Assembly: GCA_012517285.1 (NCBI GenBank)
Contig: JAAYVG010000022.1
Location: 1 to 58,409 of the forward strand
Length of the DNA: 58,409 bases
From: Elusimicrobiota bacterium
GTDB taxonomy: Bacteria > Elusimicrobiota > Elusimicrobia > Elusimicrobiales > UBA9959
Direction of reading: 5' to 3'
The first letter of the stretch is position 1; each line of letters begins with the position of its first letter. The notes beneath the pieces were generated by a model that saw only the letters and a program-made list of their open reading frames with translations, searched no databases and was not told where the DNA came from. Positions 3,237-43,867 of the stretch are shown here, one piece after another. The position numbers were made by a program, and so were the translations under genes.

Positions 3237-3289
3237 CAATTTGCTTTTCTGGCATCTGTTTTCTGACTTCTGTCTTAGTGGAGGTATTT

Positions 3290-4610: not shown

Positions 4611-7600
4611 ATGATCAAGTTTTTTATTGCATTACTGACATCATTAAATCTAAACGCTTCAAGCTTTAAGGAGCAGAGAACAAATAAAATCTCACCCCTT
4701 GCAGACACCATGATATCGATTGAAAAACAGAAGCAAGCCACATCACAGAAAACCATATCAACAATGTCTATCAGAAAAAATAAGTTTAAAGCTTTCAATG
4801 AGACCAATTCTAAAAAGAAGAACTGGAGCATCAGAATGAGCTCATATGGCATCCCAAAGCTTTTGAGTGGGGACAGAACAAAAAGATATTATGGAACACC
4901 TGAGGGGATATTTAACACATTTATAACCGAAAATAAGGATATGTTGGGTATTGATATTAATAATCTAAAATTAACCACACAATCACAATTTTTAAACACA
5001 AAGCATCTTTATTATCAGCAGTATTATAAAAACATACCTGTTGAGTTTTCTTATGTAAAACTGCATCTAACTGATAATGGTGAGATAACTCAATATAACG
5101 CAAAATATTATCCTGATATAAACATTGATATCAATCCAAAGACAACAATGGAACAAGCAAGGTTTGCTATATCATCAGAGCTTGGATCTTTTTCAGTTTC
5201 AACTTCAACGCTTGTCATATATCCTGATGAGTTGAACAACAGATATTATTTAGCATGGAAAATAGAGATAAATGGCGGGAATGGGAGTATGAATGGTAAC
5301 TGGGTATATTATATAAACTCTGATAACAACAGCATACTCTTCAAATATGATAAAAGGCAGTACAGCTGTAATCTTCAAGAAGAGACAAACGGAACAGTTA
5401 AAGGAATGGTGTATGATATATCACCAGTGCCAGAAGGAGCAGATAATGGTCCGTATTATTGGGTTCCAAAGATACAAGCTCCGATATCAGATCAGTATGT
5501 TTTTGCCGGTGGACTCTTGAAATCTACAACTACAAAATCTGATGGAGAATACTGTATAAACTACGGAGAGGGTGATGAGGGAGCTAAGGTGTTTATGACT
5601 ACTATGGGACCTTATTTTTCGGTTCTTAACTTCAGCGGACAGCCATACTTTTATACGAACGGTTTATATCAGTGGAGGACTACACCTACAAAGCTCAGTG
5701 TCCAGTCATATGATAACGATTCTACAATAACCTATGCTCTTTCACCATCATACTCAATAAATACCGGAGAAGCCCTTGCTTACACTGGACCACTCTTTGA
5801 TACCCTTAATATTGGAGAGGTTGATAACTGCAGCAATCCAATAGACAATGATATGATTTTTGTTCTTGACTCAAACAACAATGCTGTATCCACTTTTTTT
5901 GGCAAGGACAAAAGCAACATCTTCGGCGGTCTTATACCAGATCAGTCATACAAAATAAAAATAAAATCAGACCAGTCATTATCAGGAAATTTTATAATAA
6001 ACTATTCAAGCTACGTGGTTCTTACAAATCCAGCGGGAAAGGGTAATGGGAACGTAACATTTGAAACACCTGATAATGGAACATCCATAAATGTATTTTA
6101 TCATCTAAACAGGATAAGAAATTTTATGATGAAGTTTAACTCCAAGTGTGGAGGGATAGGGTGTATTGATCTTAACAAAAGGGTCTCTATTATGTCTCAG
6201 GTTTATGGAGATAAAGCCACAGGTGATTGCTATCAACCAAATACGATGTGGAATGCATTTTATGATCTGGATCATGATGCAATATTCTATGGTAAGGGAA
6301 TTGAGATGGGAGGTTATTATAAGGACTTTGGTCTTGATGGAACTGTAGTAAGGCACGAATACGGTCATCTGGTTATGAACAGGATATACCCAATAATATA
6401 CTTTGGAGAATTTGGAGCAATATCTGAGGCTATAAGCGACTATTTTTCACTATCATCCTTCTGGGATGAGGGTAAGACGCTTACAATGCTTGGTAATTTT
6501 ATAGGAACAGGTGAGGGAGTTACAAGGGATCTTTCAACTATAACAAAAAAAATGCCTGATGATTGGGCTGGTGAGGTTCACGATGATGGCATGATACTAT
6601 CAGGAGCACTCTATAAAATAAGAAAGGATCCGACATATTCTCTTGGTACAATAACATATGGTGGAGAACTGCTTAACAAGGCTGATCTTTATATCTTTGG
6701 AGCACTCTTTTATTTCCCTGATAACTTTGAAAATTTTCTTGAGGCATTGGTTGATACATGCAAACAGATCAATGGAACATGTTCTGATGAAAGCAAAATA
6801 CGAACTGCTTTCAGCGAGCATGGCATTGGATCACAATCAGTATCAGACATACATGAACCAAACAATGGACCTGAGTATGCCACTGACATATCCACATTCA
6901 ATACAATACAGGCCTATATAGATTATAATGGTGATGAGGATTATTATGCACTTACATTGAATGAGGGATTGTTCCATGCAAGGCTTTATCTACCTGATTC
7001 CCAACAATATCATGGTTTTTACCATGCATATAATATGTTTCTTTTTGATAGTTATAGAAAATATGTAACAGATATATCGCCAGTAGTAGTACCAGCTCTA
7101 TGCTACTCGGAGAATGTGCCTGACCACTGCTTTACAAGAAATAATTATGTTGATCTCTACTATTCAGTGACAAAGCCACAGATATACTATATTGCTGTAA
7201 CAGGTGGTGTAAATGGCTATTATAACAATGGCACTGATTTTAATTCACTCCTCCCATACACACTAAACTATGACCCTGACCTAAGATCATCAGTAAATGC
7301 AGAATCAGTGCTGAGCAAGTTTGATGAGGATGAAATTGAATTTAGTGTTAAGGTGCCAAAATTTGAGTATTTAAATGATCTCACTCATAATTGGGACCTA
7401 GGAAGTGAGTTTGAGTTCTGTGAATTAGGCTGTATAAAAATATTGGATAATAATTTAAATGAACTATCAACTAATTATATAACGGTAACTCCTTCCGATG
7501 GCTCAAGCTATAACTCATATGACACCACAGGCAATCCTGTGATAAAGGGTAAGATAAAATTTCAGTCCTATGCCGGAAAAACATTTTCCCAAAGGTATCC

Positions 7601-7985
7601 TGCTGTTGGAACAATATATTTAAAGTTATATGCAAATAATCATATGTCAGGAATTACAGGAGATACATTTAACCTTGGGACTTCAAACCCTATCAATTTA
7701 ACAGCCAATTCAAATTCATTTATATCATACAACAATATAATAAACTCTAATAATGCGACTATGACACTAAAGTATGAAACAAAGGAAGCATCAAATATTA
7801 AGATTTATGTTTATACTGCAACTGGGCAACTTGTAAAAAAAATATATGAAGGACAGGGTTATGGAAAGATGAGTTTTAGCTGGGATGGGACTGATGATAG
7901 CGGCAAAAAGCTTTCAAGCGGCATATACTATATAAAAACAGAAGGAGCAGTTAATAAGGTAGAAAAGGTTGCAATAGTTAGATAA
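4611..7985 (+). CDS. Secreted M4-type zinc metalloprotease with FlgD-like C-terminal domain
   Basis: 1124 residues with a short signal peptide (1-17). An FTP-type propeptide (about 85-160) precedes the catalytic domain. Zinc site: His582-Glu-Tyr-Gly-His586, then Glu606 in GAISEAISDYF, the 20-residue spacing of thermolysin. VHDDGMILSGALY around His657 matches the M4 proton-donor His. A PPC-like domain starts near 745 (EPNN, then GDEDYY). The last 78 residues (about 1047-1124) form a FlgD-Ig-like domain with IKIYVYTATGQLV, SWDGTDDSGK and SSGIYYIK, closely resembling the end of the giant protein at 32656-40053. Likely secreted and surface-attached through that domain. A PorV-like gene follows directly. 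Confidence 0.9.
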   Translation: MIKFFIALLTSLNLNASSFKEQRTNKISPLADTMISIEKQKQATSQKTISTMSIRKNKFKAFNETNSKKKNWSIRMSSYGIPKLLSGDRTKRYYGTPEGIFNTFITENKDMLGIDINNLKLTTQSQFLNTKHLYYQQYYKNIPVEFSYVKLHLTDNGEITQYNAKYYPDINIDINPKTTMEQARFAISSELGSFSVSTSTLVIYPDELNNRYYLAWKIEINGGNGSMNGNWVYYINSDNNSILFKYDKRQYSCNLQEETNGTVKGMVYDISPVPEGADNGPYYWVPKIQAPISDQYVFAGGLLKSTTTKSDGEYCINYGEGDEGAKVFMTTMGPYFSVLNFSGQPYFYTNGLYQWRTTPTKLSVQSYDNDSTITYALSPSYSINTGEALAYTGPLFDTLNIGEVDNCSNPIDNDMIFVLDSNNNAVSTFFGKDKSNIFGGLIPDQSYKIKIKSDQSLSGNFIINYSSYVVLTNPAGKGNGNVTFETPDNGTSINVFYHLNRIRNFMMKFNSKCGGIGCIDLNKRVSIMSQVYGDKATGDCYQPNTMWNAFYDLDHDAIFYGKGIEMGGYYKDFGLDGTVVRHEYGHLVMNRIYPIIYFGEFGAISEAISDYFSLSSFWDEGKTLTMLGNFIGTGEGVTRDLSTITKKMPDDWAGEVHDDGMILSGALYKIRKDPTYSLGTITYGGELLNKADLYIFGALFYFPDNFENFLEALVDTCKQINGTCSDESKIRTAFSEHGIGSQSVSDIHEPNNGPEYATDISTFNTIQAYIDYNGDEDYYALTLNEGLFHARLYLPDSQQYHGFYHAYNMFLFDSYRKYVTDISPVVVPALCYSENVPDHCFTRNNYVDLYYSVTKPQIYYIAVTGGVNGYYNNGTDFNSLLPYTLNYDPDLRSSVNAESVLSKFDEDEIEFSVKVPKFEYLNDLTHNWDLGSEFEFCELGCIKILDNNLNELSTNYITVTPSDGSSYNSYDTTGNPVIKGKIKFQSYAGKTFSQRYPAVGTIYLKLYANNHMSGITGDTFNLGTSNPINLTANSNSFISYNNIINSNNATMTLKYETKEASNIKIYVYTATGQLVKKIYEGQGYGKMSFSWDGTDDSGKKLSSGIYYIKTEGAVNKVEKVAIVR

Positions 7986-8060
7986 GTTAGTTATTTAGTT
8001 ATCTGGTTATTTAGGAAGAAATGGAATTTGGTTATTTAGTTGTCTGGTTGTTTAGGAAGA
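7985..8060. repeat. GTTATTTGGTTGT-type intergenic repeat between protease and barrel genes
   Basis: Degenerate tandem units of the type GTTATTTAGTTATCTGG and TTAGGAAGAA. The same family occurs at 9278-9330, 15552-15596, 26176-26215, 31285-31316, 31456-31484, 41880-41940, 41998-42024, 43632-43716 and 43816-43838. The AGGAAGAAG end lies just before the barrel start at 8069 and may serve as its RBS. Confidence 0.6.
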
Positions 8061-8068
8061 AGAAGCAT

Positions 8069-9175
8069 ATGAAAAAAAAGAGAAATAAAATAAGGATATA
8101 CAGCGGAATATTTTTTTTAATTATATTCAATAATAAGTTGTTTTCTAACTCTTCACTTGACATATTAAAAAATGATGTTAGTGCCGGTGTGCTTGGGATA
8201 TCAGGAGCGTATGCTGTAACAAATGCTGATATATTTTCAACAAACTATAATCCTGCTACACTTGGGTTGCTTGATAGGATGCAGATAGGTGGAAACTATT
8301 CTAATGGCTTTGAGGATGCAAAATACTCATACATAGCCTACGGCATGCCCCTGCCATTTAAAGCGATTTCAAATATATCAAACCCTTATATGGCTATATC
8401 CATATATGCAAGCAATTTAGGTGACTTTACATATAGACAATTATCATCAGATGGTATTGTATCAGAAAAATCTATGGATGCTGAGAAGGATACGGTTATA
8501 ACCCTTGCATATGGAGAAAAGGTTGATTCACAGACAGTATATATATCGCCATCAGTCAAATCAAAGTTTGAGAGCAGCATTGGCGTAGCTGTTAAGTTCA
8601 TAAACTCAAAGCTTCTTGATAAATACTCAGCTAATACAATAGCCCTTGACGCAGGATATTACGGAAGTTTTACAGATTTAGGACTTGATTTTGGAGCATC
8701 TATATCAAATATGCTTGGTAGCATAAAATACATCAGCGAAAAAGAGGATCTACCATCAACACTTCGAGTAGGATTATCTTATTCAAAACCTACCATAATG
8801 GATCAGAGGTTTAAGGTTGCAGCAGAGTTTAATAGATATATAAGTGATAAGGACAACTCACTTTCTGCAGGAATAGAATACACATTGGAGAATATGTTTA
8901 TATTCAGAAGCGGATACAGATTTCTTTCAGACAATAAAGGTTTTTCAGCCGGTGTCGGGCTTTTTGCAGGAGATTTTACCATAGATGTTGCCACAGTATT
9001 TTATGATGTTTATAAGTACAGCTCCGTTTCAATAAAATACTCATTTGGTAAATCATATCAGTCAGATAAAAATGAAAAAAAAGAGCTCAAAAAATTCATA
9101 AAAACAAAGGAAGAAGAAAAATCAAGGCCAGTTCCACCATCCAAAACAACAAAGGATCAGATAATTATATTTTAA
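8069..9175 (+). CDS. PorV/PorQ-like outer-membrane beta-barrel protein
   Basis: 368 residues from the ATG at 8069. The longer frame from 8021 would add 16 residues encoded by the intergenic repeat. A signal peptide is followed by GVLGISGAYAVTNADIFSTN and YNPATLGLL, the start typical of the PorV/PorQ (UPF0164-like) family: a conserved G-A-Y-A and an N-P-A-x-L. Many short amphipathic strands follow, ending near SIKYSFGKSY. Unlike the paralogue at 31570-32511, it then has a Lys/Glu-rich tail with PVPPSK. In type IX secretion PorV shuttles cargo across the outer membrane. Placement straight after a protease with a sorting-like C-terminal domain supports a related role, which is inferred. Confidence 0.75.
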   Translation: MKKKRNKIRIYSGIFFLIIFNNKLFSNSSLDILKNDVSAGVLGISGAYAVTNADIFSTNYNPATLGLLDRMQIGGNYSNGFEDAKYSYIAYGMPLPFKAISNISNPYMAISIYASNLGDFTYRQLSSDGIVSEKSMDAEKDTVITLAYGEKVDSQTVYISPSVKSKFESSIGVAVKFINSKLLDKYSANTIALDAGYYGSFTDLGLDFGASISNMLGSIKYISEKEDLPSTLRVGLSYSKPTIMDQRFKVAAEFNRYISDKDNSLSAGIEYTLENMFIFRSGYRFLSDNKGFSAGVGLFAGDFTIDVATVFYDVYKYSSVSIKYSFGKSYQSDKNEKKELKKFIKTKEEEKSRPVPPSKTTKDQIIIF

Positions 9176-31569: not shown

Positions 31570-32511
31570 TCAAAAGCCAAACTGAATATCAAATCTGTTT
31601 ATATTTCCAAGTTCACCAAACGGGACATATGCATAATTAAAGCTGACATCCTTTGCAATTATACCAAAACCACAGGCAAAGCCAACCATAGAACCTAAGT
31701 TGGATGTATCATAACCAAACTTATAACCAGTTCTCAAAACAAAGCTATCGCCTAAAAAATACTCAGCTCCTATGGATGGATAAAACTTTTCATCGTGAAC
31801 AAACTCTTCAACCTCTGCAACAAGGTTTGCATTTTTAATACTATAAGAAAAACCTGCTTTTATGCTTAATGGTATGTTATCACTCTCGGATTCATACTTC
31901 ATCTTTGTACCCAAGTTTAAAAGAGCAAATGATATATTTATATGATTTAGATAGTGATAAAGCAACCCAAGATCTAATGCTATAGATTGTGCAGATGAGT
32001 CATCTATCTTGGAATTAATAAACTTAAGCGATGCACCAGCACTTAGATTTTCAATAATATTTGGTGCAAAATCCTTTTTCGCATATGAGAATATAAACTC
32101 CATATCTGTTGAATCAAAACTTCCCTCAGATGGAACTATTCCAACAGCATCATTAGTCCTTCTTTCTATTGAATCTATGTTAAAGCCTGCAAACCCAAAT
32201 CCTATATCAGCATCCCTTAATTTAGTCTTGTATGAAAGTATTCCTAACTTTGAATCCTCAAGATATGTTGTAAAACCAAGCCCAAGCTCTTTATCCCTTG
32301 CAGAGGTTATGCCAGCAGGATTTGAAAAAATAGAATATGAATCATTGCCAATAGCACTGTATGCACCAGCAAGTGCTGCCTGCCTTGATGAATATGAAAA
32401 TTTTAGAAAGTTTGCAGCAGTTGTTCCCTCACCGCCATAACAATAAACACTTATTGAAATCATAGAGATAGCAAGCAGTAAGATATATTTTAATTTACAA
32501 AACGATTTCAT
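31570..32511 (-). CDS. PorV/PorQ-like outer-membrane beta-barrel protein, second paralogue
   Basis: 313 residues. A signal peptide (about 1-25) is followed by GTTAANFLKFSYSSRQAALAGAYSAIG and SIFSNPAGI, the conserved family start (R-x-A-A-L-A-G-A-Y and N-P-A-G). The body alternates Gly and aromatic residues in short strands and ends in NRFDIQFGF with a terminal Phe. In type IX secretion PorV is the outer-membrane shuttle that collects cargo with C-terminal sorting domains. It lies immediately downstream of the giant FlgD-domain protein, the same order as the pair at 4611-9175. The role in cargo transfer is inferred. An RBS GGAGG lies before the ATG. Confidence 0.78.
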   Translation of the reverse strand: MKSFCKLKYILLLAISMISISVYCYGGEGTTAANFLKFSYSSRQAALAGAYSAIGNDSYSIFSNPAGITSARDKELGLGFTTYLEDSKLGILSYKTKLRDADIGFGFAGFNIDSIERRTNDAVGIVPSEGSFDSTDMEFIFSYAKKDFAPNIIENLSAGASLKFINSKIDDSSAQSIALDLGLLYHYLNHINISFALLNLGTKMKYESESDNIPLSIKAGFSYSIKNANLVAEVEEFVHDEKFYPSIGAEYFLGDSFVLRTGYKFGYDTSNLGSMVGFACGFGIIAKDVSFNYAYVPFGELGNINRFDIQFGF

Positions 32512-32532
32512 AAAACCTCCTCTAAACAGTTA

Positions 32533-32655
32533 TCAGAAGGCAGAGGTCAGAAGACAGAAAGCAGAAGGCAGAATTTAAGGAAATCCCCTATTTGTCTGTC
32601 CTCTGTCTTCTGTCATCTGCTTTCTGACATCTGTCATCTGTCCTCTGTCTTCTGA
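32533..32655. repeat. CAGA/TCTG palindromic repeat between giant protein and barrel genes
   Basis: Left arm CAGAAGGCAGAGGTCAGAAG, core AATTTAAGGAAATCCCC, right arm of about ten TCTGTCCTCTG-like units to 32655. It fills the 144-base gap and ends at the giant protein's stop codon, so within one transcript it could form a large hairpin that separates expression of the two genes. Confidence 0.65.
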
Positions 32656-35600
32656 TCACTTTATAATTGCCATCTTATGGACTCCACCTATCTTATCACC
32701 ATTTATATAAGCTATCAAGAAATAAACTCCACTTGCACACTTTTCATTCTTGTCATTCCTTCCATCCCACTCTGAGTAATAAACATATCCACCATCCCTT
32801 ATTCCTTCTTCAAGTGTTCTTACCTTTTCACCTGCTGTGTTATAAATAACCAGCTTTACATTTCCTTTTTTACCAGCAGGAAGGTGATATTTTATTACAG
32901 TTCCATAAGTGGTATAGTTTCCCGTAGTCCAGCTTCCACCATCAGAGCTTATGTTGACAACCTTTGACTTAAGGTTAAATGGGTTTGGGATGTTATATAT
33001 TTCAAAACCACTGCCAGTATAAACTGTTCCTGTTGGTGGCTTTGATACAAAGACAGCAAATCTACCGGTTTGAGGCGATGATGATGACTGAGGGACAAAT
33101 CCGCCATCCTTTGCCATAGCGCTCATCCCTAATTTTTTCCTACCGAAAGGAGTTGTCGTATCAGGATTTTTTTCATATGCCTTTGACAGACTCACCACAT
33201 CAACAGAGACTGTGCCAAGCATCGGATCTACCGTATATGTTCCAGAAACCTCAACCCATTGTCCCGATTCCTCATTATACTGATATATTTTTAGGTTGTT
33301 TGTATCCTGAATAACCCTTTCTTTATCATATTTAAGTGTAAGTGTAAAGGCCCTGTTTGGCTCCGCGTTTGATATATCAAGGTCATAAACATCAGATGCC
33401 ATAACATTGCTTATAGCATCACTCAAACTCATCTCACCCTTAGGTGTTTTAACATTTCTAATTGATGGAAGTGCTGAGAAGAAACCACCAATCAGCTCTC
33501 CACCACCAACGCTCATAACCTTTACCTTAGAGCTTATATTAGCTGATGATGTTGCTGTTGATTTTGTAAATGCCCCCGGGTCAAGTTCAATACCACTGTA
33601 CTCCTCATTATCAGAATCCATATATATATTTCCACCTATATATATCTCATCAGATATATAATTCTCAGACGCAATATCATTTTTGACATCATAGTTTATA
33701 ATCTTTTCTATCTTATCAACATCCCCAGCAGTTATCCTCAATGTATAATATGGGACAAGCTTTGATACATTGAAACGACCTATATATGTATTGCCCGGTG
33801 ATTTAACAAGTGCAAGTTGAACTGAGTTATTATTATCAAAGCTGTTGCTGTCATATTTACCGGCAACATACTCACATACAGGAACTGTTAGAAGCTCCTT
33901 AGGACTTTTTATATTAACCTCAAGCGATGATTTATCCCTCCTGAGCTTTACATTTATTTGTGGCGGTATATCCACAAAAACTATATCATCGGCAACACTG
34001 CCAGATGAAAGTGCTTTAACGAGAATGCTCTGAGTCATCTTTCCAGGATATGTTGCAACAATTCTATAGGTGTGGTTTGCCTCAACACCCTTTATCTCAT
34101 AACTGCCATCATCCCCTGTTAGTGTTTCAATCTTAGGAACATAGCTTACTCCCGATGTGCTCCTTGTCTCATCATATGCAACTACACTCACACCTGAGGT
34201 TACAAAGGTGTTAGGAAACTTTGATATATAAACCTTACCTGTGATTGAAGAAGCAGATTTATTAAGTTTAAAATCAAAGGTTATATCTTCGCTCTGGTTC
34301 ACAGAAAATTTCTTACCATCGCTCACATATCCATCCTTTGAAAGAGACATTCTGTAAAGTCCAGGTGGTAGATTGTCAAAGGAATATCTTCCATTATTAT
34401 CACTATAAACAGTTTTTTCAAAGGTTTTATGTGTTATATAAACAGCAACACCACTGAGAGGATTAGAGTCATTATCAGTAATGGTACCACTCAGCTTTGA
34501 TATTGAAATACCTGCTGAGTCAAAATCAAAATCAAAGACAGTGTTACCGTTTACTGTTATCTCTTTTGTAACAGCAGGATAGTTAGGACTCAAAAAAACT
34601 GCTGTATAACTACCATTAGGTAGATTTGGTATATAATATGAGGATGAATCTATAAAAATATCATAGATAGTCTGAGAGCTTTTAGATACAACGGCTGACA
34701 TAAAACTCTGATAAGACTCCCCATCATCCATAAGAGAATGAGACAGCCCTCTCAACTCACCGCTTGCATCATATAACATTACATAAGGGATTAATGATAT
34801 AAGTTTATCCAGACTATTAGTTTGAAAGAGAGTATCAAAATCCTTCTGAGTTAATATATTTTTACCAGTAATCCTTCCTGTAAGTGATGATTTTCCTATG
34901 CTTCCATACAGATTGAAATCACTAATAGGTTGAGCAGATATTCCAAACAATGGATTTGAAGAGTCCTTCTGTATAACTTTGTTTTTTTCCTTTCCTATAA
35001 AGTTAACAAAACTTCTAAATGATATTGGGGAATTATCATGAGACTCAGGATTAAAACTTGAACCCAGTGCCAGATAAAAATCATACTTTCCCTGAGTTAA
35101 ATATTTTGGTTCAAAATATGATGTAGCTGTATCATAATCTATTATATATTTTGCGCTTGAATCCTTGCCAAAAAGAATATCAGTAATATTCTTACCCTTC
35201 ATCTCAAATCCAGATGGCATGCTCAAAATAATATAATAATATGTTGTATCTGGCAGGCTTGTAATAGCAGGCTGAACCACAACCCCATCCTGCATCTTAA
35301 TCCTTACATCAGTAGTTTTGCCCACAACGACAGAAACATTTTCCACAGACGAAACAGGATACCCATCTGTTTCCAATGAAAGGTTGTATAAGCCATTTGG
35401 AACAGATAATTCCAGTATAGGATCATCATTTTGATTAAAGATGAAGTTTGTGTCACGATCATATGATTTATCATATGAATTAATATAAACCTTTGGAGGC
35501 TCACAGCCTTCATAATTACACTTCGGCATAAATACACTGCCATCAGGTTTAACCACACTTATTTTTAGTTTACCAGCTCTTGTAAGCATAAGACTTGCAG

Positions 35601-38600
35601 TAGATGTATTACCTTGTGTAAAATCTATATCCCCCAGAGCACTTCTCCTCGCCCACTTGTCAGATATCACATCACACCAATATCTCTTTCCACCTGTAAG
35701 TTTAATATTATATGATGTCGTTCCTGAAATAAGACCCGCTGGTAGTTTAACAAGCCTTTGGACACCAACACCGTCATAACTATCTTCTGATATTAAAATA
35801 GTAGCATCCGTATCAGTAGCACCAACCTCGTCATAACTTACATTAAGTGTTAAGTTAGCATCTTCCGTTATCGGGTTAGCAAAATCAAATGTATATGGAG
35901 AAATTCCTTTGCAAGCACCAGAGCTATCAAGAACCCATACCCTTCCAGCAGTGCATGGATTATTAGGCGGATATGATGGCGATTTGGCACCTGAGCTTGA
36001 TATAACTATTCTGATATCATCATCAGTTCTATATTCATTATCAGCACCAAAATTTATATTCTTATACATAGGATCCATAGTATATAATCCAACATTACCA
36101 TCCTTAAGCCCATCTATCTTAAAATATCCGCTCGAATCAGTAACAAAATAGCTGTTAATCCATGACATCGTATAGTTGCCAGAAGGAGCATAGCTGTCAT
36201 CACCTGTGAAATTAAAGTTGTTGCTATCATAACCACCTGCTTGAACCTTTACACCAGAAAGTGGAATACCATTATATGTTATATAACCTGATATGGTATA
36301 TGTTGCCGGCATTAAAACGTAGGTCATATTATATGAAGATGGTAGGTAAGCCATATTCCATATATCTATATAACCCTTCTTTGTTATGTTAAGCTGAACA
36401 TTGTTATAGCCTATATCAGATGTAGAGTTATAGAAACTGAACTTACCATTGACATCAGTATATTGAACAGAATCAAAATTACCGGTGGAGATCTCAACCC
36501 TCGCATTTGATACAGGATTATTAAGAGTGTCTACAACTATACCACTCAGTATCGCAATGCTCTGCTTTGTCTGGTCATTATAGCTACCGCCCGAGACCAC
36601 AGCAGATGAAAAATCCATATAATAATCTGCAGTGGCTGCACAGGTTGATGGAAACTCTGAATAAACTATATCGGTCTTTGATAGTATTCCAGGTATTGAT
36701 ACATCTATCTTATATTTACCAGTTGATAGCTTCGGAACATTATATATGTCAACTGTTACGAGAGTATCTGTTGCCTTTACAAAATTAAGTGATATTATTT
36801 CATTTGTCCCCAATGTTATTAATGATACACTCAAAGGATAACCCGGTTTAACATTGTTAACCACAGCCCTGAAGGTATATGTTGAAGTATTAATTGATGA
36901 AAATGAATAATTAAGCGTTGTATCAGAATTAAATGCTTTTAAAAATCTCTGATATGGATCTGCAACCTGCTGCTTAACTGTTGGTGAAAATCTTGATGTT
37001 GATATCGAGATGATATAAGGCACATTATTAAGAACCCTTGATGTAATCTTTCCAGATGAGTCAGTCATCCCTGCAAATTTTATCTTACCAATATCAACTG
37101 TCCCAGTTTCTGAAGGAATGAATGATACATAGGCATTGCTCAAAGGAGCATTGGATGTACTTGTAACAACCATATTAACCGTTGAGGTGTTATCTCGAAG
37201 AATATCGTTTATCTTTTTCTTTTCTATTTTTCCATTTGATGTGGATGCAATTCCTGAAAGCTGTTTTATATCACTAACAAAATAAATAGAATCTCCATCA
37301 TTTATAGCTGACTGATATATTATATTGTTGCTTTTATCCTCAGTATAAATAAAAATGGAAGTGATATCAAGAGTCTCGGTATCTAACTTTATAAAAAATG
37401 GGATCCTGTTTGATATTGAGTCCGAAACCTTCTGCATGTCTCCACCAACAATAAGATATTGGTTATCCTTTGTTAAAAGTATATTCTTTATTTCCTCATT
37501 CTTTCCCAGATTAAAGAGCTTTGAATCAACAAGATTAAGTGTTGCCGAATCATATTTCAAAACAAATCCATAGTTATCAGAGCCATTGTTTGAATATCCT
37601 GATATATAAAAGTTATCACCTAACTTTAATATATCAGTAAATTTATCATAGCTTACTGCACCAGGAGAATTAAATGTTACTATGCTCTGTGAACTCAGAT
37701 CATCCGATATTCTTGCTATAAATCCATCAGTTGAGCTATCGGTTTTGACATAATAACCAACTGCGTATATATAATCATCGTCAACAAAGCCCTTTACGAA
37801 CTGAGTGGAAACACCATCCTGTACTGATATCTCTTTTAATGATGATATCAAACCATTTTTAAATTTTATTACACTGAACTCACCATTATCATCACTAAAT
37901 ACATAATCCGCACCATTTTTAACATAGAGTCTGAGTTTTTCTGGCATATCATCATAATTAAGTGTGTCTATTATATGATTTTCAACAATGTCGTATCTGG
38001 AGTTTATAGTTGCAAAAAAAAGATTATAATTATCATCATATATCCTTGATGATGCGACTACCTCAAAGTTACCATTATTACCAGAAATAGCGTCATAGAT
38101 ATATACATCACGTGGCATAAGTGAATTTGACATATCGGCTGCTGTTGATAACCTTGCAAAAAAACCACCCCCATCATCATTTGTTGCAATAATTGCAATT
38201 GTTGAGCCATTAATTATCAGTCTTTTATCAAACTCTTCATAAGGCATCTCCATATATATCTCACCTTGATCTAATGAACCAGAAAAACCCCTAACTACAA
38301 TTAACTGATTTGGATAACTAACTGGCAGACCAACTGCTTCTTTACCTTTAGTATCCTTGGCTGAAAATTTATAATAATGCTGCGGTACACTGCTTTCAAG
38401 AGAGCCAGAGGGTAAAAAGTATGAAAAAAGGGCAGAAACCCCGTCAGAAGAATAATTCCAACCTTCTTCAAGTTTCATATCATAAGAAATTGAATCAATT
38501 ATAACCTTTATCTCAGATGTCGTATCACCATCAAGATCGTTATATTCCACATAAAATGTAGCTCCCTCGGACAAAGCAATGACCTTGTCATTTATGCCAT

Positions 38601-40053
38601 TCTCAAAATTCTGAGGAAATGTAAGTATAGGAGCTCTATTTTCTGTAGCATTGACATTTGTAAGCTTCAATGTCCTTATATCGTTATCACAACCAAAGCT
38701 CTTACAGTAATATGTATCGCCTGTAACATAAACAGAACTTCCGCTAATACTATATGTTGAATCCATCTTTCTTATATAATCATTGCTACCGGTATCAATT
38801 GTATATCTGTTAAAAACCTTAAATGTATCAGTAGAAATTGTTAAAACTGAATAGTTAAAATTATTTGTTGCTGGGTTATAAGGATTGCACCCGAAAGCAA
38901 TAAAGCCATCAGTAACAGAAAATGTGTATAGAGAGGATAAGGAAGAAATGATTGATGATGAAACAAAACTATCAAAATTATCTAACCCATACTTATAAAT
39001 ACTCACGGTTGGTGACGATAATGCAATAGCAAAGATGTTTGAGCTGTTAGCAGCAAATTTAAATATGCCTGTTCCTAAATCTTCAAGTTTAGTTATTGTA
39101 TGATTATGTATATCATTTAGCATTGATGTTGATATATAATTATTACCATAATCATCAGTAAGAAATACATAAAGCTTATCAGTTGCGATTATATCACCGC
39201 AGAAATATGATGAAGGAGGTAACGTAGTAAAGGTTAAGGAATCACTCAAGGAAAGATTAGAATCTATCTTTACTATAGTTGCATTAGGGTTCTGAACACA
39301 GCCATAGAGGTAGTCTCCAGCAACTGCTAATGACCTAAGATCTGAATTTGAAAATGTTGATGAGGATATAAAATTCAAATCCATATCATACTTTGACACT
39401 ATAGTTGAAGGAGAACCAATCCCATTTTTATTACCAGCGGCATATATATATTCACCTTCAACTACGAGTGATTTAAAAGAATCCTCACTCTTATCACTGA
39501 CTATCACGGGTGAATGGGATGTATCCTGTGGGGAAAGCAATACTCCCTCAGCAGAGTATTTTAATATATAGGTATAAGGATAGTTGGTTGCAAGTATATA
39601 AACATTATCACCAGCATATTTTATATCAATAACATTATCATATCCTTGTTGACCAAAAACTGCACCAGAAGAGGAAGATATATCAAAACTGCCAAGAGAT
39701 ATCTGCGGTATAGATTGATATAAAACAAAATCGAGTGTTACATCCTCTTCTGAAAGAACGTTAACATTATTTTTATCAACAGTATAATAACCTGGTGCCG
39801 AAACCCTTACAGTATAGCTTCCCTCTGTGATATTTTCCATCAAAGCCACTCCAGAAGTATTAGTTATGGCTGAGGATATAACTAGATTAGCATTATCCAA
39901 ATCCAATAACTCAATTAGTGCATTGACCACAGGCTCTTCATCAGTCTTTTTAACATTAATATTTATTGTACCAGCCAAAAGCGTTAAACTTGTGCTGCCA
40001 AATATAATAACCAATAATAAAATCTTGTTTATTTTATTAATTATCTTCTTCAT
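32656..40053 (-). CDS. Giant secreted protein with repeated carboxypeptidase-regulatory-like domains and FlgD-like C-terminal domain
   Basis: 2465 residues with a signal peptide (about 1-27). Carboxypeptidase-regulatory/CnaB-like beta-sandwiches occur near 28-112, 953-1030, 1169-1330 (two copies), 1494-1570 and 1854-2030 (two). A typical one reads SGTITDNDSNPLSGVAVYIT, then GRYSFDNLPPGLY. Residues about 115-470 and 590-950 are built of repeated V-x-G-x-x-I-Y-A-x-G units, likely beta-propellers. A D-x-D-G-D cadherin/PKD-like stretch starts near 471. The last 80 residues (about 2384-2465) form a FlgD-Ig-like domain: VKLVIYNTAGEKV, then SEWDGRNDKNE, then ASGVYFL. Probably a surface adhesin or matrix protein; no catalytic site seen. 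Confidence 0.85.
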   Translation of the reverse strand: MKKIINKINKILLLVIIFGSTSLTLLAGTININVKKTDEEPVVNALIELLDLDNANLVISSAITNTSGVALMENITEGSYTVRVSAPGYYTVDKNNVNVLSEEDVTLDFVLYQSIPQISLGSFDISSSSGAVFGQQGYDNVIDIKYAGDNVYILATNYPYTYILKYSAEGVLLSPQDTSHSPVIVSDKSEDSFKSLVVEGEYIYAAGNKNGIGSPSTIVSKYDMDLNFISSSTFSNSDLRSLAVAGDYLYGCVQNPNATIVKIDSNLSLSDSLTFTTLPPSSYFCGDIIATDKLYVFLTDDYGNNYISTSMLNDIHNHTITKLEDLGTGIFKFAANSSNIFAIALSSPTVSIYKYGLDNFDSFVSSSIISSLSSLYTFSVTDGFIAFGCNPYNPATNNFNYSVLTISTDTFKVFNRYTIDTGSNDYIRKMDSTYSISGSSVYVTGDTYYCKSFGCDNDIRTLKLTNVNATENRAPILTFPQNFENGINDKVIALSEGATFYVEYNDLDGDTTSEIKVIIDSISYDMKLEEGWNYSSDGVSALFSYFLPSGSLESSVPQHYYKFSAKDTKGKEAVGLPVSYPNQLIVVRGFSGSLDQGEIYMEMPYEEFDKRLIINGSTIAIIATNDDGGGFFARLSTAADMSNSLMPRDVYIYDAISGNNGNFEVVASSRIYDDNYNLFFATINSRYDIVENHIIDTLNYDDMPEKLRLYVKNGADYVFSDDNGEFSVIKFKNGLISSLKEISVQDGVSTQFVKGFVDDDYIYAVGYYVKTDSSTDGFIARISDDLSSQSIVTFNSPGAVSYDKFTDILKLGDNFYISGYSNNGSDNYGFVLKYDSATLNLVDSKLFNLGKNEEIKNILLTKDNQYLIVGGDMQKVSDSISNRIPFFIKLDTETLDITSIFIYTEDKSNNIIYQSAINDGDSIYFVSDIKQLSGIASTSNGKIEKKKINDILRDNTSTVNMVVTSTSNAPLSNAYVSFIPSETGTVDIGKIKFAGMTDSSGKITSRVLNNVPYIISISTSRFSPTVKQQVADPYQRFLKAFNSDTTLNYSFSSINTSTYTFRAVVNNVKPGYPLSVSLITLGTNEIISLNFVKATDTLVTVDIYNVPKLSTGKYKIDVSIPGILSKTDIVYSEFPSTCAATADYYMDFSSAVVSGGSYNDQTKQSIAILSGIVVDTLNNPVSNARVEISTGNFDSVQYTDVNGKFSFYNSTSDIGYNNVQLNITKKGYIDIWNMAYLPSSYNMTYVLMPATYTISGYITYNGIPLSGVKVQAGGYDSNNFNFTGDDSYAPSGNYTMSWINSYFVTDSSGYFKIDGLKDGNVGLYTMDPMYKNINFGADNEYRTDDDIRIVISSSGAKSPSYPPNNPCTAGRVWVLDSSGACKGISPYTFDFANPITEDANLTLNVSYDEVGATDTDATILISEDSYDGVGVQRLVKLPAGLISGTTSYNIKLTGGKRYWCDVISDKWARRSALGDIDFTQGNTSTASLMLTRAGKLKISVVKPDGSVFMPKCNYEGCEPPKVYINSYDKSYDRDTNFIFNQNDDPILELSVPNGLYNLSLETDGYPVSSVENVSVVVGKTTDVRIKMQDGVVVQPAITSLPDTTYYYIILSMPSGFEMKGKNITDILFGKDSSAKYIIDYDTATSYFEPKYLTQGKYDFYLALGSSFNPESHDNSPISFRSFVNFIGKEKNKVIQKDSSNPLFGISAQPISDFNLYGSIGKSSLTGRITGKNILTQKDFDTLFQTNSLDKLISLIPYVMLYDASGELRGLSHSLMDDGESYQSFMSAVVSKSSQTIYDIFIDSSSYYIPNLPNGSYTAVFLSPNYPAVTKEITVNGNTVFDFDFDSAGISISKLSGTITDNDSNPLSGVAVYITHKTFEKTVYSDNNGRYSFDNLPPGLYRMSLSKDGYVSDGKKFSVNQSEDITFDFKLNKSASSITGKVYISKFPNTFVTSGVSVVAYDETRSTSGVSYVPKIETLTGDDGSYEIKGVEANHTYRIVATYPGKMTQSILVKALSSGSVADDIVFVDIPPQINVKLRRDKSSLEVNIKSPKELLTVPVCEYVAGKYDSNSFDNNNSVQLALVKSPGNTYIGRFNVSKLVPYYTLRITAGDVDKIEKIINYDVKNDIASENYISDEIYIGGNIYMDSDNEEYSGIELDPGAFTKSTATSSANISSKVKVMSVGGGELIGGFFSALPSIRNVKTPKGEMSLSDAISNVMASDVYDLDISNAEPNRAFTLTLKYDKERVIQDTNNLKIYQYNEESGQWVEVSGTYTVDPMLGTVSVDVVSLSKAYEKNPDTTTPFGRKKLGMSAMAKDGGFVPQSSSSPQTGRFAVFVSKPPTGTVYTGSGFEIYNIPNPFNLKSKVVNISSDGGSWTTGNYTTYGTVIKYHLPAGKKGNVKLVIYNTAGEKVRTLEEGIRDGGYVYYSEWDGRNDKNEKCASGVYFLIAYINGDKIGGVHKMAIIK

Positions 40054-40073
40054 ATCTCCTCCGGATTACAGCA

Positions 40074-40110
40074 GGTTAAGGCTAAGATTAAGGTTAAGAC
40101 TATGGTTAAG
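40074..40110. repeat. TTAACC-type tandem repeat, inverted copy
   Basis: GGTTAAGGCTAAGATTAAGG and continuing GTTAAG units. Same family as 40505-40671 but in opposite orientation, so the two bracket the four-helix-bundle gene. It overlaps the last codons of that gene. Confidence 0.7.
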
Positions 40111-40501
40111 AATGAGAAATAGTAAAACTTTTCTTAATCTTTTTATTCTTAGTCAAACTTACTATAATTTTATTTAACCCTAATAATATAGATTCTAATT
40201 TATCATTTAAGAGTTTTATCTCATTTTCAGAAAAATAACCTACTTTTCTGCCATATTCAATATAACTTTGAGTTTCAGTAAGTGATCCTCTTGAATAATA
40301 ATAAAAATTTATTTTATCTAAACTATATCCTCTGCCAAATGCTTCTGCTATATTACCAGAAATACTCAAAGATGACCTCCTTAACTGTGATGTCAGCGCA
40401 AAGTCTTCTTTTGCGGGTAATCTACTGGTAATTTTAAACACTTCAACCGCAATGTCCATAGACATATTCCATATCTCCATTTCTTTAAAACTTTTATACA
40501 T
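40106..40501 (-). CDS. Four-helix-bundle protein of the 23S rRNA intervening-sequence (S23) family
   Basis: 131 residues from the ATG at 40501 (MYKSFKEMEIW, the usual family start). An ATG at 40522 would add seven residues encoded by the tandem repeat. The core runs SRLPAKEDFALTSQLRRSSLSISGNIAEAFGRG, then FYYYSRGSLTETQSYIEYGRKVGYF, matching the family pattern of a Q-L-R-R-(S/A) helix, an N-I-A-E motif and a helix starting S-L-x-E. The exact function is unknown; relatives include proteins encoded in rRNA intervening sequences and the Avd accessory protein of diversity-generating retroelements. The gene is bracketed by inverted TTAACC-type tandem repeats, which also supply its AAGGA RBS. Confidence 0.88.
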   Translation of the reverse strand: MYKSFKEMEIWNMSMDIAVEVFKITSRLPAKEDFALTSQLRRSSLSISGNIAEAFGRGYSLDKINFYYYSRGSLTETQSYIEYGRKVGYFSENEIKLLNDKLESILLGLNKIIVSLTKNKKIKKSFTISHS

Positions 40502-40504
40502 ATT

Positions 40505-40671
40505 CCTTAACCTTAATCTCAATCTTAATCTTAACCTTAACCTAGCTCAACCTTAACCTTAATCTTAACCTGTTTTAATCTTAACCTTAACCTCAATCTT
40601 AACCTGTCTTAATAACCTCAACCTGTCTTAAACCCTTGTCTTCCTTAACCTTAATCTTAATCTTAACCTGC
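40505..40671. repeat. TTAACC/TTAATC tandem repeat array
   Basis: About 165 bases of degenerate hexamers such as CTTAACCTTAATCTCAATC, TTAACCTG and AATCTTAACC. The array lies between the outer-membrane barrel gene and the four-helix-bundle gene. A short related run occurs at 9465-9494. Confidence 0.75.
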
Positions 40672-40676
40672 CTCTA

Positions 40677-41867
40677 TTAAAACTCCCACTCAACACCTGC
40701 CATAAAATTGCTTGATTTATAATCATACTTATATCCTGCTTCATAGTTCATATTAGAATCAACAACCTGATACGAATAAATCCCTCTTGCGTATAAATTT
40801 TCATACACCTTATACTTTAAAGAAATGGAGTTTATATAAAAATTTTGATGTATCTTTGAGCCTGAATAATTACCATTGACATCCTGAGCAAGTCTTTCAA
40901 TATAGTTCAATCTGGTATATGTAAATGAATATGAAAAACTCCCTTTATCATTTAGATTGATCTGTATCCTCGGTGTTAAATCAAAGTTTATATAACTATA
41001 ATAATCATCAATATATTTTGTTCTCGTGGCATCATATGAGTTTTGATTTGAATTTAGCCATCTAAAATCAAACTCCATACCTAAATATACTTTTTTATCT
41101 GATTTTTCAATCCTTGCCCCTAACTCGGTCAATAGATCATTTCTTTTATCAGATTTAAAACCACCCAAACTATCCACTACAGATTGATCAAAATAATCCT
41201 TGTATGTCAGATTGAGTGAATATGTAAGCATCAGATCACGAGGAAATTTTACATACTCAAAACCAACCCTGTAATTTCTTGAATCAAGAACATCCTCCCC
41301 CGCATTCTGTGATATTTCTTTATAGGTTGTTGTATCAAGCACAGTTTCTGACTGGCTTATTAAACTTGAATAGTTTGGATAATGGACATAAAAATAGTCA
41401 AAACTTTCTCTGTATGTTGCCTCAGGTCTTTCCTGCTCAAAATCAATCCCGGCTGAAAGTGTATTATAATCAAAAAGCCCATCACCCCAACTCTCATCCT
41501 TTGTCTCGTTTATATAATCTAAAGAATATGATAATCTTGGCTTTATATAATTAAAATCATTTGAATGTACATACTTCAATGAAAAGCTATGTCCCATCCT
41601 TTGCCTTACAAGCACATCACCACCAACAAGCTCCTGAACATCCTCTACCCCAGTATAATATCCAATGTAAACCGGATAGAGTGCATTGTTTTCGTTAAAA
41701 TTAATTACAGGTGATGCAACAGCATTTAAATTCAAATCAAGCGATGATGACTCACCATCCAGATAATACTTTCCACCAAAAACAGAGAAGTCAAAATTAG
41801 GATTCATAGATGCTCTAAGATCCAAATTCAACATACTTAAAAAAAATATCCATAAAACATATCTCAT
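40677..41867 (-). CDS. Predicted outer-membrane beta-barrel protein
   Basis: 396 residues. A signal peptide (about 1-19, ending Leu-Arg-Ala-Ser) is followed by alternating polar and aromatic strands throughout, for example YNTLSAGIDFEQ, FSYSFTYTRLNYI and KYDYKSSNFMAGVEWEF, which ends the protein in Phe, the usual BAM signal. It opens with FDFSVFGGKYYLDGESSSLDLN. Family not recognised; porin-like or a structural barrel. It lies 202 bases after the FecR-domain gene, with repeats between, and before the giant surface protein on the same strand. A role in surface assembly or export is inferred. Confidence 0.55.
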   Translation of the reverse strand: MRYVLWIFFLSMLNLDLRASMNPNFDFSVFGGKYYLDGESSSLDLNLNAVASPVINFNENNALYPVYIGYYTGVEDVQELVGGDVLVRQRMGHSFSLKYVHSNDFNYIKPRLSYSLDYINETKDESWGDGLFDYNTLSAGIDFEQERPEATYRESFDYFYVHYPNYSSLISQSETVLDTTTYKEISQNAGEDVLDSRNYRVGFEYVKFPRDLMLTYSLNLTYKDYFDQSVVDSLGGFKSDKRNDLLTELGARIEKSDKKVYLGMEFDFRWLNSNQNSYDATRTKYIDDYYSYINFDLTPRIQINLNDKGSFSYSFTYTRLNYIERLAQDVNGNYSGSKIHQNFYINSISLKYKVYENLYARGIYSYQVVDSNMNYEAGYKYDYKSSNFMAGVEWEF

Positions 41868-41877
41868 ATAAACTCCT

Positions 41878-42064
41878 CACCATCAAACAACCAGATAACC
41901 ATCTTCTTTTTCTTCCTAAATAACCAAACAACTAAATAACTATCTTCTTGATTTATCCGTCTTCATCTCTACTTAATCTGTATTCATCTTGATGATTAAA
42001 TAACCAAACAACTAAATAACCAGTTTTTCTGTCCTCCGTCCTCTGACTTCTGTCTTCTGTCCAC
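41878..42064. repeat. Mixed repeat block between barrel and FecR genes
   Basis: CAAACAACCAGATAACC-type blocks (41880-41940 and 41998-42024) flank a GATGTAAACGGATT-family unit (41943-41998); TCTGTCCTCCGTCC units follow to 42064. The organisation resembles 9176-9436. Confidence 0.6.
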
Positions 42065-42069
42065 TGATT

Positions 42070-43503
42070 TTACTTAATATTTATCAGCCCGGCATCCTTA
42101 AGCAACTTTGCCGAAAAAACAATATCTATCTTATCTGAGAATATTGAACTATTGTACACCCTCTCAAAATTAAGCTTATCAATAAAATCATTCTTGCTCT
42201 CCCCCGGCTTCAATTTGAAATCATCATATTTTGCGACATTACCATCATCAAAGATCACAAAATCCTCAGCTGTTATGCTCGTTCCATCTGAATATGTATT
42301 ATTTGATATTGAATAGAGAACATCTTCACCTGATGGATATATAACTGAAGAGGTAGGCCTTATACCACCTAAATATGTAAATTCATTTGAATCATAGACT
42401 CCATCATTGTTGCTATCAGAAAAACTCCAAAATAGTTTTCCTTTACCACCATTCTCGCCTGCATCCTTGCTTCCTGCTGCATAAAAGGAATAGTTTGTAA
42501 AAAAATGTGTCCAGAGCGATGGATTTAAAGGATTGTCAGGGATCATCTTACCGCCACTCGCATCCTCAGTAACCTTATCAACAGTGTTTGACATAACACT
42601 GTTAACATCAGTAAGATAAACATCAGGAGCAGTATTTCCATAATAAGTATTCATATTTTTAGTAACATCTGACAAATCTGCTGGAAGTGTGTTATTAAAT
42701 GTAAATAAAATCTTACCAAAATCAAACCTCTTCTCCCTCGTATTTAAAACAACATACTTAAACTGATTGTCATGAGGTCTTGTAATATACTCCTCCATCC
42801 TCACCCTGTAACCGAATGCATCAATTGCAGTTTTTCTGTTCTGATACTCTGCTGTTTGAAGTTCCTGTTGAGCTCTTTTTATAACCTCTGATTTTGATAT
42901 CTCATTATATATTTCATTTTGAGCAATCATCTTTGAATCACCTACTGATGAGTTGAGATTTTGAGGTGGGTTCTTGTTTATTTTTGGAGTTGATATACCA
43001 GATGGTTTAACATCTATATAGCTTCCCCTTCCCACAAGAAAATTCCTCTGTTTTAAATCAGAGACACTCACACTTCCATCATAGACCTCAACCCTCGTCC
43101 TATCCTTATCAGAAATAACAACAAAATCAGTTCCTCTGACCCCACATACAGCAGCAGGTGTTATAACCTTATACTCCTTTGATTGTTTTTTTACCCAGTT
43201 TCTTATCTTACCAATAAAAAGTGTTGAACTTATTTCATTTACATCCTCATTATTAAACTTATAATAGGAAAGTGGTCCAATCTTAAGCTTTGAGCCATTA
43301 TCAAAATATATTTCAACACTGCTTGCCCTTTCAGTAGATATCTCTGATTGTGGTTTTATATCAAATCTATTCGTTTTATCAACCATCACCCACTTATCAG
43401 TTTCCTTGTAATAAACATTGCCAATAGGATTTGACAGATATGCTGCATATGAAGAGACATAAAGGATAAAAAAACTACAACAAAAAACATATATTTTTTT
43501 CAT
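42070..43503 (-). CDS. Secreted FecR-domain protein
   Basis: 477 residues from the ATG at 43503, 6 bases after GGAG; a start at 43530 would precede the signal peptide. Signal peptide about 1-20. The FecR core (about 25-160) reads IGNVYYKETDKWVMVDK, SVEIYFDNGSKLKIGPLSYY and YKVITPAAVCGVRGTDFVV, then VEVYDGSVSVSD. A Gln/Glu/Arg-rich helix follows, and then a long C-terminal region with DSNNDGVYDSNEF, resembling a calcium loop. There is no membrane anchor or sigma factor partner, so a classical anti-sigma role is unlikely. It is first in the minus-strand surface cluster. Confidence 0.78.
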   Translation of the reverse strand: MKKIYVFCCSFFILYVSSYAAYLSNPIGNVYYKETDKWVMVDKTNRFDIKPQSEISTERASSVEIYFDNGSKLKIGPLSYYKFNNEDVNEISSTLFIGKIRNWVKKQSKEYKVITPAAVCGVRGTDFVVISDKDRTRVEVYDGSVSVSDLKQRNFLVGRGSYIDVKPSGISTPKINKNPPQNLNSSVGDSKMIAQNEIYNEISKSEVIKRAQQELQTAEYQNRKTAIDAFGYRVRMEEYITRPHDNQFKYVVLNTREKRFDFGKILFTFNNTLPADLSDVTKNMNTYYGNTAPDVYLTDVNSVMSNTVDKVTEDASGGKMIPDNPLNPSLWTHFFTNYSFYAAGSKDAGENGGKGKLFWSFSDSNNDGVYDSNEFTYLGGIRPTSSVIYPSGEDVLYSISNNTYSDGTSITAEDFVIFDDGNVAKYDDFKLKPGESKNDFIDKLNFERVYNSSIFSDKIDIVFSAKLLKDAGLINIK

Positions 43504-43867
43504 AAACATCTCCTCACCCCAAAACCACATCTTTAAAGCCAGTTATTTTTTTAAACCTACACTTTAATTCTACACAAAAACATACCACAAGTCAATATAA
43601 CTTTTGTAACATTTCATAATTATTGTGAATTTGGCTTCTTCTTCCCATACACCCAGATAACTGCCTTGTCCCTTTCTTCCTAAATAACCAGACAACGAGA
43701 TGACCAAATAACTAATTTGCTTTTCTGATTTCTGTCCCTGCCTGCGCCGAAGCGGCTTCGGCAGGCAAGTTCTGTTATCTGACTTCTGTCATCTGTCTTC
43801 TGACATCTGTTTCCATTAAACAACCAGATAACTATTCTATTTGATATAATAAAAGAAAGGAGGAGTT
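43504..43867. other. Divergent intergenic region with repeats
   Basis: No gene in about 360 bases. It contains a CATAATTATTGTGAATTTGG segment shared in reverse with 26203-26235, CCAGATAACTG blocks (43632-43716, 43816-43838), a GC-rich palindrome (43738-43768) and TCTG-type units (43770-43812). TATAAT at 43845-43850 upstream of the FAD subunit is a possible -10, but no clear -35 is seen. Confidence 0.5.

Follow-up and report, generated by a model that had tools for sequence, protein, structure and literature searches.

A gene cluster in the little-studied phylum Elusimicrobiota appears to encode both a giant protein of the cell surface and the outer-membrane carrier dedicated to it. The cluster lies in a stretch of 58,409 nucleotides (the window) from an Elusimicrobiota assembly of 1.96 Mb in 52 contigs. 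In the best explanation, to which we assign a probability of roughly 70%, the giant is a cargo resembling those of the type IX secretion system (T9SS) that is accompanied by a dedicated carrier and takes a divergent SprA route, with a FecR-domain protein and a 16-strand barrel as co-inherited partners, likeliest an anchor or adaptor. Our claim is that three parts (translocon, carrier and sorting domain) are, judged from sequence, homologous to those of the T9SS, and that the system would work in a T9SS-like manner at the outer membrane; a complete T9SS is not claimed.

A same-strand gene quartet is conserved in related genomes

The original prediction described five genes reading in one direction (FecR-domain protein, outer-membrane barrel, four-helix-bundle gene, giant and PorV-like barrel). 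All five are present on the minus strand of the window:

42070-43530 (486 aa; Met at 43503), minus strand: leading gene of the quartet, a secreted FecR-domain protein (PF04773, 55 bits)
40677-41867 (396 aa), minus strand: 16-strand outer-membrane beta-barrel of an unnamed family (AlphaFold2 and Foldseek)
About 40064-40119 and 40505-40676: inverted degenerate hexamer arrays (GTTAAG/CTTAAC type) flanking the four-helix-bundle gene
40106-40522, minus strand: four-helix-bundle gene (TIGR02436, 101.1 bits, cut-off 24; PF05635, 105 bits)
32656-40053 (2465 aa), minus strand: giant exported protein with a signal sequence (open reading frame and PF13620)
32659-32928 (residues about 2380-2465), minus strand: sorting domain at the C-terminus of the giant, type A-like CTD/FlgD_ig (PF13860, 30.5 bits, cut-off 27)
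31570-32511, minus strand: PorV/PorQ-family outer-membrane carrier, directly after the giant (NF033709, 159.5 bits, cut-off 90)

The identities proposed for the FecR-domain protein, the four-helix-bundle gene and the PorV-like barrel hold at the scores listed. Neighbourhoods were taken from 20 of the 26 genomes with a full-length FecR homologue. FecR, barrel and giant genes follow one another in this order on one strand in all 20, and the PorV gene comes after the giant in 17/17 loci with sequence running past it, the stretch or contig stopping there in the other three. Because order and strand are kept in 20/20 loci, the genes constitute a conserved unit; scattering of the genes in relatives, named beforehand as the refuting outcome, was not seen. 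The co-occurrence expected of related genomes is thus borne out for FecR, barrel, giant and PorV, which make up a fixed quartet on one strand. In 6/20 loci this quartet is immediately preceded by a paralogous one (giant', PorV', barrel', FecR'), producing eight-gene arrays. Such arrays also occur in nine loci: L054, L060, L061, L064, L069, L074, L075, L078 and L084.

Membership of the four-helix-bundle gene in the cluster did not survive the comparison. The gene is absent from 19/20 loci and in the window lies inside an inverted repeat; the one similar gene among the 20 relatives (L039) has another place, between giant and PorV. It is an insert between the hexamer arrays and not part of the unit. 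With these inverted arrays on its flanks, the gene would form the loop of a long hairpin, an arrangement of a TIGR02436 gene that we take to be reminiscent of 23S rRNA intervening sequences. The gaps between barrel and giant and between giant and PorV, described earlier as repeat-filled, are indeed occupied by inverted simple-repeat arrays. In the giant-PorV gap (32533-32654) degenerate 7-bp arrays (TCTGTCN / CAGAAGN) form an inverted pair, and arrays of this kind recur in the window at 3245, 9370, 21063, 21182, 22100, 42027, 43770 and 54616.

The giant ends in a domain related to T9SS type A sorting domains

The C-terminal sorting domain (CTD), absent from the original prediction, is the best clue to the nature of the giant. 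Alongside PF13860, it is matched by the NCBIfam models for PorU, PorZ and FlgD; its score against TIGR04183 is 16.3 bits, below the cut-off of 23. Two other cargos of the same genome exceed that cut-off. When the CTDs of 14 sequences were considered, TIGR04183 matched 12 (E<=0.01) and the PorZ model 13. A profile built from these sequences (A5) found the C-terminus of PorZ (5m11, E 2.7e-8) and that of PorU (6za2, E 3.6e-5) in the PDB, as well as FlgD. Furthermore, the PorU model NF033707 matches in 15 of 21 genomes, and the matches listed run from model position about 944 on, with one at 874-1015. Homology of the CTD is supported, since these matches fall almost only in PorU's own CTD region. 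On these profile matches, the terminal domain of the giant is homologous to the type A sorting domains of the T9SS.

Giants in relatives range from 1543 to 3938 aa, and most of them align with the window giant only over its residues about 950-2465, its conserved core. The 'seven or so' carboxypeptidase-regulatory-like domains reported earlier were near the mark: PF13620 detects five stretches when the protein is scanned whole and six when it is scanned in 250-aa pieces. For the propellers that had also been predicted, neither a family match nor a meaningful PDB sequence match was obtained. Very large putative cargos are seen in related genomes, where, among the matches listed, open frames of 10,805-17,613 codons contain a match to the CTD or to the CTD part of the PorU model (G001:C6:189638, G009:C11:39393, G012:C54:24880, G003:C3:104778 and G011:C10:32111).

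Cargo and carrier genes form co-diverging pairs

The carrier gene downstream of the giant was compared with known PorV-family proteins. The window's protein does not reach the PorV and PorQ equivalog cut-offs. A PorV-family profile (A7) matched the PorV chain of the Flavobacterium johnsoniae translocon (6h3i_F) with E 1e-31 and 113.5 bits, the next PDB match being TodX (E 4e-7, 32.7 bits). When carriers were scanned, the PorV/PorQ model matched 13/13 and the PorP model 1/13, weakly (E 0.0096). By these scores the predicted carrier of the window groups with PorV, the carrier of F. johnsoniae.

The arrangement of a CTD gene followed by a PorV-family gene is found at least nine times in this genome. 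A second instance lies in the window itself:

4611-7985, plus strand: second cargo, a secreted protein resembling thermolysin (FTP propeptide, weak M4) with an FlgD_ig/type-A-like CTD at its end (PF13860, 44.4 bits; PF07504, 38 bits)
8021-9175, plus strand: PorV-family carrier of the second cargo (NF033709, 98.1 bits, cut-off 90)

Among the matches listed for 14 genomes, a CTD ends on the same strand no more than 1 kb upstream of 78/99 PorV genes; a CTD lies downstream of 1/99 and on the opposite strand of 0/99. For the window's genome, again among the matches listed, a CTD is directly upstream of every PorV gene over the cut-off (7/7). Unpaired among the matches listed are 21/99 PorV genes, with no CTD upstream, and 68/150 CTDs, with no PorV downstream. 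The 99 genes exclude matches below 90 bits alone and those that pass the cut-off only 'with neighbours', and the pairing counts are lower bounds. As far as gene order indicates, a cargo in Elusimicrobiota would usually come with a PorV of its own. Among the matches listed, the number of PorV-family matches per genome is 5-50 in nine genomes of the window's family and 2-4 in five genomes of another family.

Distances between CTDs correlate with distances between the associated PorV proteins in 38 pairs (r 0.67), a value as high being obtained in 0/10000 permutations; within genomes r is 0.65, again with 0/10000 permutations as high. For this test 40 of the pairs were sampled from five genomes, including two below the PorV cut-off; two pairs were left out owing to a wrong frame, and r is 0.48 when they are included. 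This shows that carrier and sorting-domain sequences co-diverge and that the pairs stay together. Joint duplication accounts for part of the co-divergence and can yield it without binding.

The genome encodes a divergent SprA homologue

A SprA homologue of 1765 aa is encoded on another contig of the genome (C32). It matches TIGR04189 with 124 bits (E 2.6e-36), the curated cut-off being 200. A first search gave weak but consistent matches in 60/61 genomes, all of them short of the curated cut-off; the 14 controls gave none. The same model matches 23/23 diverse SprA homologues, and a 23-row profile of these (A6) retrieved from the PDB nothing but F. johnsoniae SprA (E 5e-29, best stretch residues 1157-1742); a 5-row profile retrieved no PDB match. 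The homologue is found in 131/149 Elusimicrobiota genomes and in 116/123 good genomes, and all 18 genomes lacking it belong to one family (f10). On this profile evidence, the genome has a SprA/Sov translocon of divergent sequence, distantly related to the type IX export channel.

Other T9SS components were sought in 21 genomes. The PorL/GldL-PorM/GldM motor was represented by GldM in 0/21 and by a weak GldL match in 1/21, with a control set containing no genome known to have these proteins, and the catalytic part of PorU was not recognised in the 21 genomes, a search run without a positive control. On another contig of the window's genome (G000:C47, L163 1129-3732), a CTD-PorV pair has genes at a distance of about 2-3 kb that by eye resemble ExbB/ExbD/ExbD/TonB, a possible candidate energy source. 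In 5/5 genomes viewed (L158, L169-L172), the SprA homologue is adjoined by two permease-like genes of about 345-415 aa, which we presume to be LptF/LptG from their appearance.

The PorV-family proteins might instead be nutrient porins of the FadL/TodX kind and the CTD a generic Ig cap, in which case the pairs would be uptake operons of a surface binder and a porin. A weak FadL/Toluene_X Pfam match, the second place of TodX in the PDB search and the affinity of the CTD to FlgD-type Ig domains are all compatible with such operons. However, we consider them improbable: the PorV chain outscores TodX by 113.5 to 32.7 bits, the CTD is at the very C-terminus and matches the ends of PorZ and PorU, the gene order is one-sided (78 vs 1 among the matches listed) and a translocon homologue is present in the genome.

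The FecR-domain protein and the 16-strand barrel are partners of the giant

The FecR gene probably starts at 43503, as called earlier, because the Met at this position is invariant in 14 aligned homologues. In the AlphaFold2 model (pLDDT 89, pTM 0.62), a signal-peptide helix is followed by a FecR fold, a helical hinge and a C-terminal domain. Residues 59-205 superimpose on the PupR signalling domain (6ovk_R) with Z 17.9 and rmsd 2.3 over 136 aligned residues, while fold comparison of the C-terminal domain (about 226-486) gave a best Z of 6.5, to unrelated beta sheets, and no interpretable match. As had been predicted, the protein lacks a membrane anchor, no membrane segment other than the signal-peptide-like N-terminal helix being visible in the model, and the ten ORFs scanned in the cluster and its surroundings include no sigma factor. 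The model contains no anti-sigma part; the protein is therefore not a classical FecR. Together with the conserved quartet, the model supports a surface cluster in which unanchored FecR proteins adjoin barrels.

Full-length FecR homologues (E<1e-120) occur in 26/37 genomes of the window's family (f1) and matches of any kind in 34/37; the other family sampled in the order (f2) gave none in 24 genomes. A scan of the genome collection with the FecR alignment left 78 loci, from Elusimicrobia(ota) and several 'bacterium' records; the sole Proteobacteria record is a weak, FecR-only match.

Fold prediction of the barrel likewise bore out its assignment (AlphaFold2 pLDDT 87.1, pTM 0.82, 16 long strands). 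No Pfam or NCBIfam family was matched. Foldseek returned hundreds of matches headed by outer-membrane porins and receptors, those to porins, BtuB and AlgE having E 1e-7 to 1e-8 and TM 0.4-0.5, which denotes general porin-like folds only. Of 80 pattern stretches checked for viral relatives of the barrel, none was confirmed. Profile matches are spread over many families and 50/149 Elusimicrobiota genomes, and a SprA homologue is present in 50/50 of these compared with 81/99 genomes without the barrel (Fisher p 4e-4). This association is partly phylogenetic, as all 18 SprA-lacking genomes belong to family f10. Conversely, 81/131 SprA-bearing genomes have no barrel, so FecR and barrel are not general parts of export.

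These distributions bear on whether the cluster is an undescribed surface assembly system, as was originally suggested. In its strict form, FecR and the two barrels would build and export the giant as a self-contained surface-matrix system, with no separate translocon. The tight conservation of the quartet, and of the paralogous quartet beside it, would suit this proposal, as would the FecR-barrel pair, a combination with no known function. Yet at least eight other CTD-PorV pairs of the same genome stand outside such a quartet and a SprA homologue accompanies all 50 barrel-bearing genomes of the 149; a general export route is therefore at hand. Additionally, contig C35 of the same genome (L167 6059-9671) carries a FecR gene, a small barrel-like ORF and a barrel-family gene near a trypsin-like gene, with no giant. 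We accordingly give self-containment little credence. For the giant and PorV, one of at least nine cargo-carrier pairs in the genome, an independent undescribed system is unsupported, and they fit a cargo-carrier pair of the type IX kind; the suggestion stands for the FecR-barrel pair, which is still without a described function.

The FecR fold, clearly of PupR/BDI_1681 type (Z 16-18), would suit a cell-surface signalling pair of FecA-FecR type that controls the cluster, but this reading was rejected as very improbable given a FecR protein with a signal-peptide helix at its N-terminus, PF04773 as its only family and no anti-sigma domain, the lack of a sigma factor among the ten ORFs scanned, and a barrel whose 16 strands directly follow the signal peptide, with no plug or signalling-domain family.

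A proposed route to the cell surface

In the favoured explanation of a T9SS-like cargo with a dedicated carrier, the giant would reach the periplasm by means of its signal peptide, be recognised through its C-terminal Ig-like sorting domain and be led through the divergent SprA/Sov translocon, whose gene lies on another contig (C32). The PorV-family barrel from the gene just downstream of the giant's would then pull it out and keep it at the surface; by analogy with the F. johnsoniae translocon, the giant would pass out via the SprA homologue and remain with this dedicated PorV. The FecR protein and the 16-strand barrel are co-inherited partners of this class of giant and would most likely tie the giant-PorV complex from the periplasm to the outer membrane. 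An anchor or adaptor for that complex is the simplest guess for their role.

A more ambitious proposal, which we regard as doubtful, is that Elusimicrobiota possess a phylum-wide branch of the T9SS with one PorV per cargo and a motor unlike GldLM. The FecR-barrel pair would then be a new module for anchoring or force coupling that links giant surface proteins, via their PorV, to the periplasm, comparable to the SprF-GldK coupling described for gliding adhesins in the part of the source cited (PMC12635249).

Comparison with known systems

The passages cited restrict type IX secretion either to Bacteroidota (PMC12618676) or to the Fibrobacteres-Bacteroidetes-Chlorobi (FCB) group (PMC11205867). 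In the literature searched, mostly open-access with few subscription papers or preprints, we found no description of a T9SS, PorV or sorting domains in Elusimicrobiota. A translocon homologue in 131/149 genomes of this phylum would shift the boundary of the T9SS far beyond Bacteroidota and the FCB group.

A close counterpart is the Type A branch of the Bacteroidota T9SS (SprA/Sov, PorV and TIGR04183 CTD), whose translocon, carrier and sorting domain have putative homologues in Elusimicrobiota. According to the sections cited, the lateral opening of SprA is the docking site of PorV in the F. johnsoniae translocon, the loops of PorV bind the CTD (PMC10994853), and a single PorV serves all Type A CTDs (PMC12618676). 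In Elusimicrobiota, by contrast, there is mostly one carrier per cargo, the translocon is shorter (1765 aa vs 2403), and motor and sortase were not recognised in searches run without a positive control. Dedicated pairs do exist in F. johnsoniae, where Type B CTD cargos are reported in the cited text to have cognate PorP/SprF carriers (PMC12618676; PMC9143113), the carrier gene lying directly 3' of the cargo as in Elusimicrobiota. The Elusimicrobiota carriers, however, are of the PorV/PorQ family and the CTDs type A-like. With so simple a layout, dozens of operon pairs would be available from which to read carrier-cargo specificity.

The FecR-barrel pair constitutes a conserved module of two proteins to which no function is assigned. 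Its FecR protein has the FecR domain fold in common with FecR/PupR signalling proteins, but differs in having no anti-sigma part, a C-terminal domain with no secure match and a fixed barrel partner. Models of the Leptospira FecR-domain surface proteins LipL45 and Lsa33 also match the FecR part of the window protein.

Outside Bacteroidota, a close parallel is in Poribacteria, for which the portion of the report cited describes TIGR04183-type Por sorting domains with no recognised Por genes and leaves the export route open (PMC3909097). Elusimicrobiota resemble Poribacteria in carrying such domains outside Bacteroidota, and additionally have a translocon homologue and paired carriers. The Elusimicrobiota translocon would thus suggest how sorting-domain proteins exit the cell in phyla regarded, like Poribacteria in that account, as being 'without' Por genes.
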